Translations under genes and position numbers: made by a program
NCBI GenBank assembly: GCA_017541205.1
Contig: JAFXZO010000048.1
Coordinates: forward strand, 1 to 51,681
Reading direction: 5' to 3'
Length of the DNA: 51,681 nucleotides
DNA from: Clostridia bacterium
Lineage (GTDB): Bacteria; Bacillota; Clostridia; Christensenellales; Aristaeellaceae
Shown: positions 6,417 to 48,343 of the stretch, piece after piece
Layout: every line of letters starts with the position of its first letter
Numbering within the stretch: position 1 is the first letter of the stretch
Notes under the pieces: model-generated
Told to the model about the DNA's origin: nothing
Databases searched by the model: none
What the model saw: only the letters and a program-made list of their open reading frames with translations

Positions 6417-10667
<4,251 letters not shown>

Positions 10668-10693
10668 GCTCACTTCCTATTTGCAGTTTCTGG

Positions 10694-42512: not shown

Positions 42513-42555
42513 AAGCCCTCCTTCCGCGGAAGACCTTCCCACAGCCGGAGGGCTT
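42513..42555 (+). terminator. Hairpin after the second sugar operon
   Basis: AAGCCCTCC (42513-42521) pairs with GGAGGGCTT (42547-42555) around a loop that can pair partly. No T run follows on the plus strand; the T run is on the minus side. It may terminate weakly. Confidence 0.5.
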
Positions 42556-42608: not shown

Positions 42609-42637
42609 TTGACAGCAGCGGCAAAAACGGATAAAAT
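42609..42637 (+). promoter_or_regulatory. Promoter of the Dlt-like operon
   Basis: TTGACA, exactly 17 bp and TAAAAT; the predicted start is near 42644. It fixes the first gene's start downstream at 42711 and excludes the 70-codon longer frame. Confidence 0.8.
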
Positions 42638-42710
42638 ACGCATGAAACTGGAAAACAGTGTATTTTTTTGTCATGAAAACCGTATGGCGGAGAAAAGAAA
42701 GGAAAGAACA

Positions 42711-44087
42711 ATGCCGTTTCTCAAACGATTCGGAGCAATAAAGCCGAAATGGAAAAATGCTTTGCGCGCGCTGCTGTTTTGTTTCGCGCTGTTTATCGTT
42801 TTCGATCATTTTCAAGGTATTTTTGTGGTGGATGCGGCCCGCGGAACGACCAATATAAGAAACTATTACAAAGAACGCCCCGACAGCCTGGATGCGGTTT
42901 ATCTTGGCGGCAGCAATGTACATGCATTTTGGCAGCCTGTTTTTGGCTGGGATGAATACGGCATCGCGGTATGGAATTTTTCAATGGACAGCATGCCGCA
43001 CGATGCGATAAAGTATTATTTGATTGAAGCAAGAAAGAAACAGCCAAACGCATTATATCTGATCAATTTGAACGTATTCAAGACAAATGGGAAAGCCCCG
43101 ACGGATTCGGCGATCCATTGGGCTGCGGATTTTTTGCCTCTGTCGCTGAACAAAATACGAATGCTCTTTGATATAACCGGCGATATGGAAGATCCGTCAG
43201 AATTCTTTTTTCCCATCATACGTTTTCATAGCCGCTGGGACAGCCTGAAGCCGTTGGCATTGGGCGCGTCGGACGTGGATTACAAATCATCGATCCAATA
43301 TTCGCCTTTTATTTCAAAATCGGAAGATCAGAGCAGCAAGTATAACATCTATGAAGAAAAATCGGAAGTTCCGCAGACGGTGCTGAACGTTTTTTACGAG
43401 CTGCTTGAATATATTGATGCAAATCACGTCAATGTCCTATTCCTGGAAGTTCCCCAGGTGCTGAGCAAACAGGAAGGGCAAAGGATAAACACCTTGGAAG
43501 CAATACTGAAGGAGCGGGGATATCCGTGCCTGGACTTAATGGATGAGACGTTTGAAATAGGGCTTAACCCGCAGACGGATTTTTATAATACTCTGCACAC
43601 AAATGTTCACGGATCAATCAAGTTTTCAGATTATCTCGGCAGATATCTGGTTGAAAACTATCATTTTTCGGATAAACGCGGACAAGCCGGATGGGAAAGC
43701 TGGGACAAGGCGGCCGAGGGATACATGAAATATTTAAGCCCGTGGACCTTGCCGTTTGAGCGGGCATATGCCAAGAGATCTGATCTTGATATCCCAAAGC
43801 TCAATAATCTAAAGATATCCGGCTGTGACATTACCGTGACCTGGAAGGAAGCCAAAGGTGCGGACGGATACCAGATCTACCGTAAATCGAATTCGGAGAA
43901 CGGAGGATACTGGCATTTGATCGCTACGGTCGATATGCAGACCTTATCGTTTGAAGACAAAGGACTGCGGGCATCCGAACAGTATACGTATACCGTTGTT
44001 CCTTTCCTGGCAGACGAGGAGAATGATTTCCTTTATGGGAGCTTCAATGTATTGGGTGTCAGCGGGAAGACAGGAGGAAGCAAGTAA
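42711..44087 (+). CDS. SGNH-like membrane protein with C-terminal FN3-like domain (DltD/AlgJ-like role)
   Basis: A 458-residue protein. A signal-anchor helix (about 17-40) is followed by an extracytoplasmic SGNH-hydrolase-like domain. The nucleophile candidate is Ser68 in YLGGSNVHAFW, and the terminal DxxH-type pair lies in TDFYNTLHTNVHG (Asp290 and His296, six apart rather than three). Residues about 364-455 form a fibronectin type III-like domain (ITVTWKEAKGADGYQIYRKS ... YTYTVVPF). The pattern is that of the SGNH partners of MBOAT acyltransferases, such as DltD and AlgJ; the FN3 domain is an addition that canonical DltD lacks. The start at 42711 has AGGAAAG before it and follows the promoter. 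Its stop overlaps the MBOAT start by one base. Codon use is more AT-rich than in the sugar operons. Confidence 0.75.
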   Translation: MPFLKRFGAIKPKWKNALRALLFCFALFIVFDHFQGIFVVDAARGTTNIRNYYKERPDSLDAVYLGGSNVHAFWQPVFGWDEYGIAVWNFSMDSMPHDAIKYYLIEARKKQPNALYLINLNVFKTNGKAPTDSAIHWAADFLPLSLNKIRMLFDITGDMEDPSEFFFPIIRFHSRWDSLKPLALGASDVDYKSSIQYSPFISKSEDQSSKYNIYEEKSEVPQTVLNVFYELLEYIDANHVNVLFLEVPQVLSKQEGQRINTLEAILKERGYPCLDLMDETFEIGLNPQTDFYNTLHTNVHGSIKFSDYLGRYLVENYHFSDKRGQAGWESWDKAAEGYMKYLSPWTLPFERAYAKRSDLDIPKLNNLKISGCDITVTWKEAKGADGYQIYRKSNSENGGYWHLIATVDMQTLSFEDKGLRASEQYTYTVVPFLADEENDFLYGSFNVLGVSGKTGGSK

Positions 44088-45685
44088 TGACGATCATTTC
44101 GTTTGAATTTCTCTTGTTCGTATTGGCCGTTGTTCTGGTTTATTATATCGTACCGAAAAAAAAACGGTGGATCGTTTTGCTTGCGGGCAGTTTCGTCTTT
44201 TATTGGCTGAACAGTAAATGGCTGGTATTTGTGCTGCTTGGAACGAGCATGACGACCTATCTGTTCGGCTTGCTGCTTCAGCGGCAGAACGAAAAAAACA
44301 AAGCGGTCCTGCAAAGCAATAAGGAATTGTCCAAAGAGGAAAAAAAGCGGCTGAAGGAGAAACAGAAGAAAAAAAACCGGCGAATACTGGCTGCCGGTAT
44401 CCTTCTGGTCCTTGGCGCGCTATTGTTCCTGAAGTATTTCAATTTCTTCGGCGATAATCTGAACGCGCTGTTCTCCGCGGCGGGGACCGGATGGACGATC
44501 CCTTATCTGAAGCTGCTGCTGCCCTTGGGCATTTCCTTTTATACTTTGCAGGCGATCGCCTATCTGGTGGATATCTATCACGGTAAAGTTCAGGCGGACC
44601 GGAATCCCGCAAAGTTTCTTCTTTTCATGTCGTTTTTCCCGCAGATTATTCAGGGCCCCATTCCGCGGCATGGTCATTTGGCCGATCAGCTTTATGAAGG
44701 GCATGCTTTTGATTATCGGCGGCTGTGCTTCGGCGCACAGCTGATGCTCTGGGGATTTATAAAGAAACTCGTGATTGCCGAGCGCCTGGCGATCCCTGTC
44801 AATTATTTGTTTGAAAATTACAGGAATTATTCAGGCCCGATCGTCTTTTTTGCGGTCGCGCTTTACGGCCTGCAGGTTTATGCCGACTTTTCCGGAGGGA
44901 TGGATATAGCTCGCGGCGTTGCCCAAATGCTGGGGATCGAGCTGGCGCTGAACTTTAAGCAGCCCTACTATTCCACCTCCATTGAAGACTTCTGGCGGCG
45001 CTGGCATATCACGATGGGCAGTTGGATGAAAGATTATGTTTTCTATCCGCTGTCATTATCCAAGGCCTTTACCAATCTGAGCAGGAAAAGCAGGAAGATC
45101 CTGGGCCAGTTTGTCGGGAAACGGCTGCCGGCGTTTCTGGCCATGTTCATCGCGTATTTCTGCGTGGGTTTCTGGCATGGGGCAAACTGGAAATGCATTG
45201 CCTACGGCGTATGGAACGGCTGTTTTATCATGTCCGGTATTTTGCTTGAAGGCGTATATCAGAAAAGCAGAGAGATATGCGGCATCAATGAATCTGCTGT
45301 TACCTGGCGGCTGTTTCGGATGCTGCGAACGTTTGTGATCGTCAGCTTTGGCAGATTTTTTTCAAGGGCGGCCGATTTGCCCACGGCGCTTGATATGTTT
45401 GGCAGGACGTTCAAGCACTGGAGGGACATTACCTTCATAACGAACGGTACGCTGCTGAAGCTCGGCCTGAACAATGCGAACTGGATTGTGCTGTCCCTGT
45501 TCGTTATCGTGTTGTTGTATGTGGATTCCCGGCACGAGAAAGGCATATCTTTCCGGGAGGTTTTTGCCCGGCAGCCGTTATTGTTCCGATGGGCGATCTA
45601 CATCGCGGCGATATTGCTCGTGCTGATCTTTGGCATCTATGGTCCGGAGTATAATGTTGCGAACTTCGTATATGAGCAATTCTAA
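44087..45685 (+). CDS. MBOAT-family O-acyltransferase (DltB/AlgI-like)
   Basis: A 532-residue polytopic membrane acyltransferase that transfers acyl groups across or at the membrane. Signatures are FFPQIIQGPIPRHG, VYADFSGGMDIARG, His307 in DFWRRWHITM and the invariant catalytic His364 in GFWHGANW. About ten or more helices are expected. It is longer than typical DltB (about 400) and nearer AlgI/PatA in length. A highly charged Lys/Glu loop at about 67-100 (KEEKKRLKEKQKKKNRR) is unusual. Co-location with ligase and carrier protein genes indicates that the donor is a carrier thioester, as for DltB, not acetyl-CoA alone. Confidence 0.92.
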   Translation: MTIISFEFLLFVLAVVLVYYIVPKKKRWIVLLAGSFVFYWLNSKWLVFVLLGTSMTTYLFGLLLQRQNEKNKAVLQSNKELSKEEKKRLKEKQKKKNRRILAAGILLVLGALLFLKYFNFFGDNLNALFSAAGTGWTIPYLKLLLPLGISFYTLQAIAYLVDIYHGKVQADRNPAKFLLFMSFFPQIIQGPIPRHGHLADQLYEGHAFDYRRLCFGAQLMLWGFIKKLVIAERLAIPVNYLFENYRNYSGPIVFFAVALYGLQVYADFSGGMDIARGVAQMLGIELALNFKQPYYSTSIEDFWRRWHITMGSWMKDYVFYPLSLSKAFTNLSRKSRKILGQFVGKRLPAFLAMFIAYFCVGFWHGANWKCIAYGVWNGCFIMSGILLEGVYQKSREICGINESAVTWRLFRMLRTFVIVSFGRFFSRAADLPTALDMFGRTFKHWRDITFITNGTLLKLGLNNANWIVLSLFVIVLLYVDSRHEKGISFREVFARQPLLFRWAIYIAAILLVLIFGIYGPEYNVANFVYEQF

Positions 45686-45704
45686 GCGGGAGGGAGAAAC
45701 CGAT

Positions 45705-47204
45705 ATGGAGATCATCAAATGGCTCAAGAACGGCGATCCTGAGAAAATCCTTTTTTCGGATGAAAACAATGCAGTCACGTATGCCGATTTTCGCGAAACC
45801 GCACAGAGGATAGGATCGGCGCTCATTTCCAGGTGCAATGTTACCCGTAAACCGATCGTTGTTTTTATTGACAGAAACATTCAAAGTATTTGCGCGCTTT
45901 TCGGCATCGTCTTCAGCGGGAATTTCTATGTGCCGGTGGACGTCAACCAGCCGACAGACCGGATCAAGACGATTTTTAGACAGATCCAGCCTGCTGCGGC
46001 AATCCGATTATCGGGCATTCCGGAAATCGAAGAAGAGGTTCGGGAATTCTGTTCTATCCTGGATTATAACGAAATATCGTCGGCGCCGATCGACAGCCAG
46101 GCTCTTTGCCGCATTCAGGAGAATGCGCTGGACACCGATCCGCTGTATGCGATCTGCACGTCGGGATCAACCGGCGTGCCGAAGGCCGTATTGATTTCCC
46201 ATCGTTCGGTTGTGGATTTTATCCCTGTCTTTGTGAACACCTTTCATTTCTCGAAAGAAGAAATCTTTGGGAATCAGGCGCCTTTTGATTTTGACGTGTC
46301 TACAAAAGATATTTATTCTGCCCTGTATTGCGGGGCGCAGATGCATATCATTCCCAGAGTGTGTTTTTCAATGCCAAAGCAGCTCATCGATTTTTTGAAC
46401 GAAAGGAAAATATCGGCCATCATTTGGGCAGTGTCCGCAGTCTGCATTCCGTCCGGATTCAATAGCTTCAAATATGATATCCCGCATCATCTGAAAAAGG
46501 TGCTCTTTTCCGGTGAACAAATGCCCATGAAACAGTTGAATATTTGGCGAAAATATATGCCTGAGGTCGAATATGTAAATCTGTACGGCCCGACAGAGAT
46601 CACCTGTAACTGCATGTATTATGTCGTGGACCGTTCTTTTGAGGACACGGAGGTTCTGCCCTTGGGAAAAGCCTTTGCGAACGAGCATGTGATGGTCATT
46701 AAAGAAGACGGCACGCCCATCAAACAGGGGGAAACAGGAGAAATCTGTGTGCGCGGCACATGCCTGGCTCTCGGATATTACAATGCGCCCGACCGGACGG
46801 CGCTTGCGTTTACGCAAACGCCCGAGCATAACAGCTACCCCGAATTGATCTATCATACCGGGGATCTGGCGTATTTGAATGAACGGAACGAATATGTGTT
46901 TGCTTCCAGAAAAGATTTCCAGATAAAGCATATGGGGCACAGGATCGAGCTGGGGGAGATCGAAACATACGCAAGCGTGATCGAAAGCATTCGCATGTGC
47001 TGCTGTATTTATGATGAAACGAAGAATAAAATCGTTCTGTTTTATGATGGGAACGCCGAGAAGAAAGAAGTTGTCAATCAGCTGAAGGAAAAGCTTCCGA
47101 AATATATGCTTCCGAACGTGTATATGCAGCTTGAGACGATGCCTTTGAATAAAAATGGGAAGATCGATCGTCAAAAACTGAGGAGCATGCTGAATCATGC
47201 ATAA
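45705..47204 (+). CDS. DltA-like amino-acid adenylating ligase
   Basis: A 499-residue adenylate-forming enzyme that should activate a small amino or carboxylic acid with ATP and load it on the carrier protein. Core motifs are in order: A3 ICTSGSTGVPKAV (150-162), A5 NLYGPTEITCN (292-302), A7 YHTGDLA, A8 HMGHRIELGEIE, and A10 Lys486 in NGKIDR. Length and sequence around APFDFDVSTKDIYSAL resemble DltA. A cysteine in WAVSAVCIP (Cys247) falls near the DltA residue linked to D-alanine selection. D-Ala is therefore possible but not proven. The start is the ATG at 45705 with GGGAGGGAG before it. The end overlaps the acetyltransferase gene by 8 bp. Confidence 0.9.
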   Translation: MEIIKWLKNGDPEKILFSDENNAVTYADFRETAQRIGSALISRCNVTRKPIVVFIDRNIQSICALFGIVFSGNFYVPVDVNQPTDRIKTIFRQIQPAAAIRLSGIPEIEEEVREFCSILDYNEISSAPIDSQALCRIQENALDTDPLYAICTSGSTGVPKAVLISHRSVVDFIPVFVNTFHFSKEEIFGNQAPFDFDVSTKDIYSALYCGAQMHIIPRVCFSMPKQLIDFLNERKISAIIWAVSAVCIPSGFNSFKYDIPHHLKKVLFSGEQMPMKQLNIWRKYMPEVEYVNLYGPTEITCNCMYYVVDRSFEDTEVLPLGKAFANEHVMVIKEDGTPIKQGETGEICVRGTCLALGYYNAPDRTALAFTQTPEHNSYPELIYHTGDLAYLNERNEYVFASRKDFQIKHMGHRIELGEIETYASVIESIRMCCCIYDETKNKIVLFYDGNAEKKEVVNQLKEKLPKYMLPNVYMQLETMPLNKNGKIDRQKLRSMLNHA

Positions 47205-48000
47205 GATCAATAGCTTTGACGAAATCGAAAGCAAGATCATATCGAAAAAAGGGATCGTCAGCAATTTCTATCTGATGCCGGAAGAAACAAAAAAGATCAT
47301 TCTGGCGGGCGAGCTGTTTGAAACAGATGCTGAAAACGGATTTGCCTGGGTGCAAAAAAAGGAAGGAAGAAATCAGTTTTTCTATCGGACGGACATAGAC
47401 AGCGCAGACGCTTATGAATGCAAATTGCCGGATGATGACCGTTATGTGGCGGAAATCATCCATCTGACCGCAGCCTCTGAAAGATACACGTCGGAAAAGT
47501 ATATTTTGAGCAATTGCGGTTTCCATTTGGTTGAGCCTGCCAGAATGATGGCCCGAAAACCTTCGTCCGTCGCATTTGTTCCTGCGGAGGACCATAGGAT
47601 CAGGCCGGCAGTGAAAGCGGACGAACGCATTGTATCCGCATTGCTGCACGAGGCTTTTGATCCGCTGACGGATGCGATTCCTACGGGAAACGAATTGAAG
47701 CAGACGATAGAAAATGGTGAAATGTGGATAGACGAGGATACGAAAGCCGATAAAATACTTGGCTGCGCCGTGTTTGAACTGTCGGGGAAGAGGGCATGGG
47801 TTCGCCATGTCACAGTTGATAAAAAGATGCGGGGGCAGGGAATAGCAAAAGAATTGCTTCTGACGTATATTTCCCGGAAAGGCCCGGCGACAGCGTATGC
47901 TTTGTGGGTGAGGGACGGCAATCAAGCCGCCATCCAATTATACAGGAAGGCGGGCTTTGAAGAGACGCCCAGGCAGATGGATATATGGGTAAAAGCGTGA
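47197..48000 (+). CDS. Double-domain GNAT N-acetyltransferase
   Basis: A 267-residue protein with two GNAT-like halves. The C-terminal half (about 133-267) has an intact acetyl-CoA motif A, VRHVTVDKKMRGQGIAKEL, with RGQGIA at 212-217, and a motif B region ALWVRDGNQAAIQLYRKAGF. The N-terminal half (about 1-120) is a degenerate GNAT-like domain ending KYILSNCGFHLVEP and probably structural. It should transfer an acetyl or other acyl group from CoA to an amine. Its 8-bp overlap with the ligase gene and position before the carrier gene tie it to this pathway. Canonical dlt operons lack such a gene. Confidence 0.88.
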   Translation: MHKINSFDEIESKIISKKGIVSNFYLMPEETKKIILAGELFETDAENGFAWVQKKEGRNQFFYRTDIDSADAYECKLPDDDRYVAEIIHLTAASERYTSEKYILSNCGFHLVEPARMMARKPSSVAFVPAEDHRIRPAVKADERIVSALLHEAFDPLTDAIPTGNELKQTIENGEMWIDEDTKADKILGCAVFELSGKRAWVRHVTVDKKMRGQGIAKELLLTYISRKGPATAYALWVRDGNQAAIQLYRKAGFEETPRQMDIWVKA

Positions 48001-48061
48001 TCAGCGTATTCTATTTCGTAAGAAATTGAATAAAAATACACTTTTGAAAGGGGAAAGGATC

Positions 48062-48295
48062 ATGAGGGAACAGCTGCTTGCTTTATTGGAGGAAATTCGC
48101 CCGGACGTGGAATTTGAAAAAGAAAAGAAACTGATCGACGACAGCATCCTGGATTCGTTCGATATTATTTCCATCGTCCAGGAAATGAACGACACTTTTG
48201 ATATTGAGATCGACGTCGAAGAACTGGTGCCGGCAAATTTCAATACGATTGAGGCGATGATCGAACTGATTGAAAAACTCCAGGCAGAAGGATGA
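48062..48295 (+). CDS. Acyl/aminoacyl carrier protein (DltC-like)
   Basis: A 77-residue acidic four-helix carrier protein. Ser32 in ILDSFDIIS is the site for 4'-phosphopantetheine; DltC has LLDSFG at the same place. It should carry the acid activated by the adjacent ligase to the MBOAT enzyme. The start is the ATG at 48062 with AAAGGGGAAAGG upstream; the longer frame at 48026 runs into that site. No phosphopantetheinyl transferase gene is in the window, so the housekeeping enzyme must serve it. It is the last gene of the operon, and a perfect hairpin follows. Confidence 0.93.
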   Translation: MREQLLALLEEIRPDVEFEKEKKLIDDSILDSFDIISIVQEMNDTFDIEIDVEELVPANFNTIEAMIELIEKLQAEG

Positions 48296-48308
48296 GATGA
48301 ATGAACAA

Positions 48309-48343
48309 ATGGCTTCATTTGCGAAAAAAGCAAATGAAGCCAT
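48309..48343 (+). terminator. Perfect 14-bp hairpin after the carrier gene
   Basis: ATGGCTTCATTTGC (48309-48322), a 7-nt A-rich loop, then its exact complement at 48330-48343. No T run follows directly (GTTTTT is 15 bp on), so it is a probable end-of-operon structure rather than a textbook terminator. Confidence 0.6.

Follow-up and report, generated by a model that had tools for sequence, protein, structure and literature searches.

What would an acetyltransferase do in a Dlt-like operon, where its gene stands between those for an adenylating ligase and a small carrier protein? D-Alanylation is the textbook means by which Gram-positive bacteria tune surface charge. The locus that raises this question lies on contig JAFXZO010000048.1 of assembly GCA_017541205.1, from a Clostridia bacterium of the family Aristaeellaceae; the whole stretch of 51,681 nucleotides that was analysed is called the window here. 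Five plus-strand genes at 42711-48295 encode, in order, an SGNH-like protein, an MBOAT, a DltA-like ligase, a GNAT-family protein, and a DltC-like carrier. These genes are read here, at about even chances, as an operon for Dlt-like acylation of the envelope with an amino acid other than D-alanine, in which the cargo would be tailored on the carrier. From the gene content and order, their recurrence, invariant positions in the ligase pocket, a shuttle motif in the MBOAT, and the differing genes in one slot of related operons, we infer the chemical steps, the identity of the amino acid, and the acceptor.

In the proposed scheme the ligase would activate a single amino acid, probably an acidic one (Glu or Asp) and possibly through its side-chain carboxyl, and load it onto the carrier. 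The GNAT protein would then use acetyl-CoA to N-acetylate the aminoacyl group on the carrier. Next, the MBOAT would shift this N-acetylated group onto the tyrosine of its own FVYEQF motif, and the SGNH-like protein would move it from there to a hydroxyl of an extracellular polymer.

The operon proteins stay below the curated NCBIfam cut-offs for Dlt. The ligase scores 288.7 bits against the DltA equivalog TIGR01734 (cut-off 559.85) and 303.4 bits against its best model, DltA PRK04813 (cut-off 476); the MBOAT scores 147.4 bits against its best model, the DltB equivalog TIGR04091 (cut-off 375); and the carrier reaches 20.7 of 52.35 bits for TIGR01688 and 35.7 of 68 bits for PRK05087, both DltC models. 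No ligase in the organism's own genome reaches the DltA cut-off, as one does in two of 14 control genomes (B. subtilis and L. lactis). Among 119 sampled genomes of the phylum none exceeds it, and one ligase comes near (locus L105 in our numbering, 544.7 bits); L105, itself just under the TIGR01734 cut-off, is the DltA-like reference for the pocket. The comparison with the DltA pocket that the initial annotation proposed to make on structures was made by sequence: the window pocket, DVKILSLCNK, and that of L105, DLLILCLVAK, differ at five of ten positions (236, 239, 301, 330, and 331), numbered by what we take to be the Stachelhaus scheme (235, 239, 301, 331, 517 etc.).

Relatives of the ligase were sought across 84,980 species, each represented by one genome; among the matches listed, 570 of 594 candidate stretches encode one, and the best 80 of these at least 570 relatives were analysed with their loci. 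Most of the organisms named are Lachnospiraceae or other Clostridia; Coriobacteriaceae/Atopobiaceae also occur, as do two metagenome-assembled genomes (MAGs) labelled Bacteroides. The next recognised gene after the ligase encodes a pyridoxal phosphate (PLP) decarboxylase in 56 loci, a GNAT protein in 10, the carrier in eight, and something else in six: the carrier followed by a formyltransferase in L007, a nucleotidyltransferase-aminotransferase in L009, an SGNH protein in L011, and none recognised in L012, L032, and L060. Weak GNAT matches on the other strand in L070, L077, and L079 (E ~1e-16) were lost under stricter settings and are uncounted. The order ligase-GNAT-carrier holds in nine of the 10 GNAT loci, the carrier lying upstream in L008. 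Together with the window and L003, which came from a GNAT search of 60 genomes and whose order ligase-GNAT-carrier-MBOAT-SGNH is seen on the longer stretch L158, these make 12 GNAT loci.

The association also holds from the side of the GNAT gene. A GNAT-profile search of 398 genomes of the phylum gives at least 25 matches in 24 genomes at 1e-12 (the best six candidates per genome were scored). Three of them cover the full two-part profile, namely the window, G155, and G342, the latter two directly beside a related ligase; the other 22 are confined to the GNAT half, from profile position 118 of 282 onwards. A ligase search of the same genomes (best three candidates per genome) gives at least 12 matches at 1e-110 including the window, and the next gene in the 11 others encodes a GNAT protein in two, a decarboxylase in three, a formyltransferase in one (L151), the carrier in three (L147, L149, and L150), and another protein in two: a 182-aa protein with no Pfam match in L146 and an FkbM-type methyltransferase before the carrier in L148. 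The initial annotation had asked whether the five-gene order with a GNAT gene between dltA- and dltC-like genes recurs; the ligase-GNAT pair does, in 10 of the best 80 loci and in both other full-length GNAT matches of the 398 genomes. A chance insertion of the GNAT gene is rejected in view of this recurrence and the reverse search. Two of the distant loci bear on the neighbourhood of the slot: in L148 (6919-9837) the methyltransferase gene, between a distant ligase and the carrier, perhaps encodes another tailoring enzyme, and in L147 (5310-7644) a gene for an acyltransferase of a different kind, an AAC(3)-type N-acetyltransferase (PF02522), overlaps the start of a distant family ligase.

L151 has a formyltransferase gene between those for ligase and carrier, and in L007 one follows the carrier gene, which argues for N-acylation of the cargo; the L007 ligase has the five pocket positions that are invariant in the family. 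In L151 (8088-10966) the formyltransferase gene overlaps the ligase gene by 4 nt, the carrier gene is next, and a second ligase gene lies just upstream. The initial annotation saw a Dlt-like system with a tailoring acyltransferase rather than ordinary D-alanylation, and the recurrence and these formyltransferases sustain that core; its points on charge and MBOAT length are taken up below. It also missed the commonest relative, in which a gene like that for diaminopimelate (DAP) decarboxylase takes the place of the GNAT gene and the ligase has the same five invariant pocket residues. The two decarboxylases scanned match TIGR03099 and LysA below their cut-offs, and an alanine-racemase N-domain model matches as well (8e-9); on the decarboxylase models the PLP gene is taken as DAP-decarboxylase-like and not as a racemase gene. 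Such a gene follows the family ligase in L020 (7482-8702) and 55 other loci, and in many of these carrier, MBOAT, and SGNH genes lie alongside. This majority form suggests envelope esters of the gamma-aminobutyric acid (GABA) or beta-alanine type.

In a quick tree, with SH-aLRT support only and with six of 93 rows left out (L088, L089, and L091-L094), the window falls in a clade of 13 rows (support 99) made up of nine GNAT rows including the window, L007 with its formyltransferase, L009, L011, and L012. Outside this clade lies another GNAT set (L003, L049, and L055), and therefore the GNAT loci are not one clade; the fewest changes number five, and the starred branches force two.

Whichever gene comes next (GNAT in 12, PLP decarboxylase in 56, carrier in eight), D235, K239, S301, N331, and K517 are identical in all 82 family ligases, that is, the 80 of the ligase search, L003, and the window. 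Invariant columns number 79 of 499 in the ligase, and the chance of five or more among ten pocket positions would be ~0.012 if these were drawn randomly. A single amino acid, not D-Ala, is probably used across all classes of the family. It is probably acidic, Glu or Asp, as K239 hints at an extra carboxylate on the substrate. The pocket keeps Asp235, the residue to which the free amino group usually binds, and acylation after loading is therefore likelier than acylation before it. A cargo open to either decarboxylation or N-acylation would fit an acidic amino acid held via its side-chain carboxyl. The suggestion in the initial annotation that acetylation would cap the positive charge presumes an alanine-like cargo; the invariant lysine hints at an acidic one. 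Ligases of the more distant GNAT loci L143 and L144 have another pocket, DAKLFALVDK, with the lysine kept. A more distant ligase in L146 (5950-8182) has the pocket DAKCAGLGMK, including K239, and an Asp/Glu racemase gene 4 nt upstream; further upstream lie asparagine-synthase-like, SGNH, MBOAT, and carrier genes.

The export half of the operon departs from Dlt in another way. In Dlt, D-Ala passes from DltB to the tyrosine of an FXYXXF motif in DltX and on to DltD, and MBOATs of the PatA type, which work with acyl-CoA and no carrier, carry this motif at the C-terminus themselves, according to an account of these pathways (PMC12148441). The window MBOAT has both the conserved histidine (in FWHG) and a C-terminal FXYXXF, as in PatAB-type systems. 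The DltB model (380 positions) aligns to residues 92-424 of its 532 aa, and the extra C-terminal stretch terminates in FVYEQF, an instance of the acyl-shuttle motif, which explains the length in excess of DltB. The surplus of about 130 residues was correctly noted in the initial annotation, but it is ordinary for PatA/AlgI-type MBOATs (PMC12148441) and supplies the DltX-like shuttle. The six frames of the window hold one C-terminal FXYXXF, the MBOAT's own end, and no separate DltX peptide with the motif, the rest of the genome not having been searched. Among 61 family MBOATs (at least 400 aa and not running off the end of the locus) the pattern is C-terminal in 55 and its tyrosine is kept in the other six, thus in all 61. 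By analogy the MBOAT would join the roles of DltB and DltX in one chain, and with this DltX-like end of its own the operon would be a hybrid of a Dlt-like front end and a PatA-like back end. Locus L014 (3-5949), on the same contig as L011, has two tandem SGNH-MBOAT pairs beside two family ligases, the MBOATs having the same length and score (not aligned).

The SGNH-like protein is assigned by motif only. Ser68 in GxSN, Asp290, and His296/Asn298/His300/Gly301 are invariant in all seven aligned relatives, the window included, and these residues and the MBOAT partner carry the assignment made in the initial annotation; no SGNH model matches the protein in Pfam and family-profile searches. The FN3-like domain described at the same time is borne out by the family profile, which matches the Fn3-like domain of 3mpc (E 7.4e-6), the single protein scoring 16.7 of the 25 bits needed in Pfam.

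In the GNAT protein, PF00583 matches residues 170-254 at 45.2 bits (cut-off 20.7). Conservation within the family extends to the N-terminal half, but an hhalign comparison of the two halves gives 0.6% probability and a second GNAT domain is not detectable; of the double GNAT initially proposed, the C-terminal half alone is retained. The best solved relatives of the family profile are the N-acetyltransferases RimI and YpeA. The 11 other GNAT proteins are 16-22% identical to that of the window, compared with 47-57% for the ligases of the same loci, and in all 12 loci the GNAT gene overlaps the ligase gene or starts at most 3 nt from its end (taking each frame to open at its first start codon). 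The GNAT gene thus evolves fast yet keeps its place beside the ligase.

Other accounts of the GNAT gene can be weighed against this evidence. That the genes form an ordinary D-alanylation operon, with the GNAT gene there by chance or for an unrelated job, is very improbable: DltA (PRK04813, 303.4 bits) and DltB (147.4 bits) do supply the best NCBIfam models, but ligase and MBOAT lie far under the curated cut-offs (476 and 375 bits), the ligase pocket departs from that of L105 at the five positions given above, and the GNAT association recurs. The missed cut-offs and the pocket led us to reject an ordinary D-Ala dlt operon. AcuA-type GNAT proteins acetylate and inactivate AMP-forming CoA ligases. 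The overlap of the ligase and GNAT genes, the place of AMP-forming ligases among known acetylation targets elsewhere (PMC11619455), and the fact that RimI, the best solved relative of the GNAT profile, acetylates a protein would all suit a regulator that acetylates the A10 lysine of the ligase (Lys486, in NGK) and switches the ligase off, leaving the cargo unacetylated. Such a regulator is nevertheless distinctly unlikely, as the formyltransferases of L151 and L007 and the decarboxylase in 56 of the best 80 loci fit cargo chemistry better. The conserved extra N-terminal domain of the GNAT protein is also not known from AcuA.

It is unlikely as well that the aminoacyl-carrier serves the GNAT-fold enzyme as donor for transfer of the amino acid to a cytoplasmic amine, such as an amino-sugar precursor, in the manner of Fem or LF proteins, with MBOAT and SGNH performing a second reaction. 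An MBOAT gene is present in 10 of the 12 GNAT loci, the formyltransferase found in a similar place is no aminoacyl transferase, and the GNAT half matches ordinary acetyl-CoA enzymes, although the two-part protein with its unassigned N-terminal half, the ligase-GNAT-carrier arrangement of L010 with no MBOAT within 13 kb, and a QueC/NAD-synthase-like gene adjoining the ligase in L055 would be in keeping with a donor role. Alternatively, acetylation could precede activation: the GNAT protein, in the manner of N-acetylglutamate synthase, would act on the free amino acid, and its N-acetylated product would then be the substrate of the ligase. This is rather unlikely: the weak matches of the GNAT protein to amino-acid N-acetyltransferase models (E 3.4e-4 and 1.3e-3) point that way but are far under cut-off and usual within the superfamily, and the invariant pocket positions, which include the amino-binding Asp, are unchanged where a decarboxylase or no tailoring gene follows.

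The reading as an operon for on-carrier N-acetylation has points of its own against it, several of which concern the cargo. Because almost all amino-acid adenylating enzymes have D235 and K517, K239, S301, and N331 are left as the specific signal. The substrate call draws on one lysine and on specificity codes: the Glu code, which we assume to be DAKDLGVVDK, was not confirmed in the open-licence literature searched, and the window pocket agrees at six of ten letters with what we take to be the Ser code. The ligases of the formyltransferase locus L151 have other pockets, such as DILFLAMVDK, without the lysine at 239, and the formyltransferase gene of L007 runs to the contig end. Not every GNAT locus shows the export genes, with no MBOAT in L010 (13 kb) or L055 (part covered) and no SGNH-like gene within 13 kb in L143 or L144, and a GNAT-family gene with no Pfam match in L069, a decarboxylase locus, is not adjacent to the ligase. 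Which atom is acetylated would not be readable from the GNAT sequence. As to the acceptor, neither a TagF-type polymerase nor a match to the LtaS-like protein of L009 was found in the organism's own genome, which is 85% complete, the LtaS search having been made without a positive control.

A teichoic-acid acceptor in this organism is unsupported, with no TagF and no LtaS-like match. The ligases of some relatives do stand beside genes of this kind: an LtaS-like sulfatase-domain gene in L009, a TagF-like gene in L011, and a GDPD gene in L012. L009 (827-9366) has in a row genes for an SGNH protein, an MBOAT, the LtaS-like polymerase, the ligase, and a fused nucleotidyltransferase-aminotransferase.

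The initial annotation held that absence of the GNAT gene from this position in close relatives would count against its interpretation. A GNAT match at 1e-10 is indeed found in none of 28 genus-mate genomes (65-96% complete, MAG-like), but the whole operon is missing there, not the GNAT gene alone: a close relative of the ligase is present in none, and distant ligases (30-40% identity, other pockets) occur in four. Three genus-mate loci (L152, L154, and L155) have carrier-ligase-MBOAT operons, two of them including an SGNH gene; the ligase pocket is a different one, DNLFFCMDVK, and a further ligase-like protein lacks the amino-binding Asp. The operon genes have a GC content of 0.44-0.49 and a GC content at third codon positions of 0.53-0.64, against 0.55-0.62 and 0.71-0.88 for three flanking genes; this low GC and the absence from 28 incomplete genus-mates suggest that the operon was recently acquired by horizontal transfer. 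Matches to the esterase and MBL genes that flank the operon occur in five and 10 of the 28 genomes, respectively. An empty integration site could not be shown, as the flanks are non-syntenic in three stretches around close MBL relatives. Carriage on plasmids was rejected on the single match at 1e-60 among 72,556 plasmid records, to a 2.7-Mb Paenibacillus record at 36% identity.

The layout of the operon (Table 1) agrees with the initial annotation in coordinates and in the 8-nt overlap of the ligase and GNAT genes. The SGNH and MBOAT genes overlap by 1 nt, and gaps of 19 and 61 nt separate MBOAT from ligase and GNAT from carrier, respectively. Pfam matches above cut-off are AMP-binding (1e-55), MBOAT (3e-10), GNAT (1.3e-11), and PP-binding (2.2e-5). 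The promoter proposed earlier does agree with consensus; the 8 kb scanned contain 15 promoter-like sites compared with a mean of 8.2 in shuffles. The hairpin said to close the operon is there as anatomy and is weak as a terminator on the operon strand, being scored terminator-like on the minus strand only. Just 5' of the operon, at 42513-42555, an inverted repeat seen by eye (AAGCCCTCC/GGAGGGCTT) is followed by a short minus-strand T-run and may be a boundary terminator. Elsewhere in the window, the minus strand at 6417-10673 encodes a 1418-aa protein that combines an amino-acid permease with a histidine kinase and also has two matches to receiver domains.

Table 1. Features of the predicted acylation operon, in window coordinates.
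Feature	Position	Strand	Evidence and remarks
Promoter-like site, TTGACA-17-TAAAAT	42609..42637	+	11 of 12 consensus positions; consensus match only
SGNH-like transferase (putative DltD/PatB role), 458 aa	42711..44087 (ATG 42711)	+	Motifs and context; hydrophobic N-terminal stretch (by eye); C-terminal FN3-like domain at about residues 370-430
MBOAT, 532 aa	44087..45685	+	Pfam MBOAT; FWHG (catalytic-His motif); C-terminal FVYEQF
Stand-alone amino-acid adenylating ligase (DltA-like), 499 aa	45705..47204	+	AMP-binding; pocket DVKILSLCNK
GNAT-family acyltransferase, 267 aa	47197..48000	+	GNAT domain in C-terminal half; N-terminal domain without assigned fold
DltC-like phosphopantetheine carrier, 77 aa	48062..48295	+	PP-binding; LDSFD attachment motif
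Perfect 14-bp hairpin 3' of the carrier gene	48309..48343	no strand	Plus strand without T-run

The window operon may belong to a large family of gut Clostridia and Coriobacteriia in which a DltA/DltC-like front end with one set specificity, not for D-Ala, is coupled to a PatA-like MBOAT that has its own shuttle. An exchangeable slot next to ligase and carrier (decarboxylase, acetyltransferase, formyltransferase, or none) would vary the cargo, a single amino acid arriving at the surface either as a cationic amine, for example in GABA or beta-alanine esters, or as an uncharged or anionic N-acyl amino acid; this wider picture is tentative, somewhat short of even odds. No description of such systems was found in the open-licence literature searched, and the family looks little described, with a tailoring enzyme that differs between relatives. 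If the picture is right, many gut bacteria own a system parallel to D-alanylation that uses another amino acid and in which one enzyme swap sets the charge, and the reading predicts the surface chemistry of poorly known gut species. The family would also be intermediate between the carrier-using Dlt pathway and the carrier-free MBOAT-SGNH pathways, which are treated as separate in the source cited (PMC12148441).

Canonical Dlt shares with the window operon a stand-alone adenylating ligase, a small carrier, an MBOAT, and an SGNH-like partner, as well as the logic of carrier, shuttle tyrosine, SGNH serine, and polymer outlined in the same account (PMC12148441). The window operon differs in missing the DltA, DltB, and DltC cut-offs, in its ligase pocket, in its extra GNAT gene, in a shuttle motif that is part of the MBOAT and not of a DltX peptide, and in the FN3-like domain of its SGNH-like protein. 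PatAB/AlgI-type O-acetylation resembles it in the C-terminal FXYXXF on the MBOAT and the separate SGNH partner, but is described there without a carrier and with an acyl-CoA donor (PMC12148441), whereas here ligase and carrier genes adjoin the MBOAT.

For tailoring on the carrier itself, a precedent by analogy is BtrK, which converts glutamyl-S-carrier to GABA-S-carrier and falls in one clade with DAP decarboxylases, as reported (PMC7857480). The butirosin proteins BtrK/BtrI and the exosortase-associated pair of ligase and decarboxylase (TIGR03098/TIGR03099) resemble the present family in that BtrK modifies a carrier-bound amino acid (PMC7857480), as is proposed here, and in that a TIGR03099/LysA-like decarboxylase gene follows the ligase in 56 of the best 80 relatives (two scanned). 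The enzyme of the BtrK type is a PLP decarboxylase, whereas the window has a GNAT gene and no decarboxylase gene between ligase and carrier; the decarboxylases of the two scanned relatives are below the TIGR03099/LysA cut-offs and are likened to BtrK without direct comparison. The butirosin ligase presumably belongs to another family. In the F-A-T initiation modules of non-ribosomal peptide synthetases, such as LgrA of linear gramicidin, adenylation is followed by N-acylation on the carrier and onward transfer. The order of steps proposed for the window is the same, and a formyltransferase is also present in L007 and L151; LgrA serves peptide synthesis, whereas the window has separate proteins, a GNAT protein, and presumed delivery to MBOAT and SGNH.

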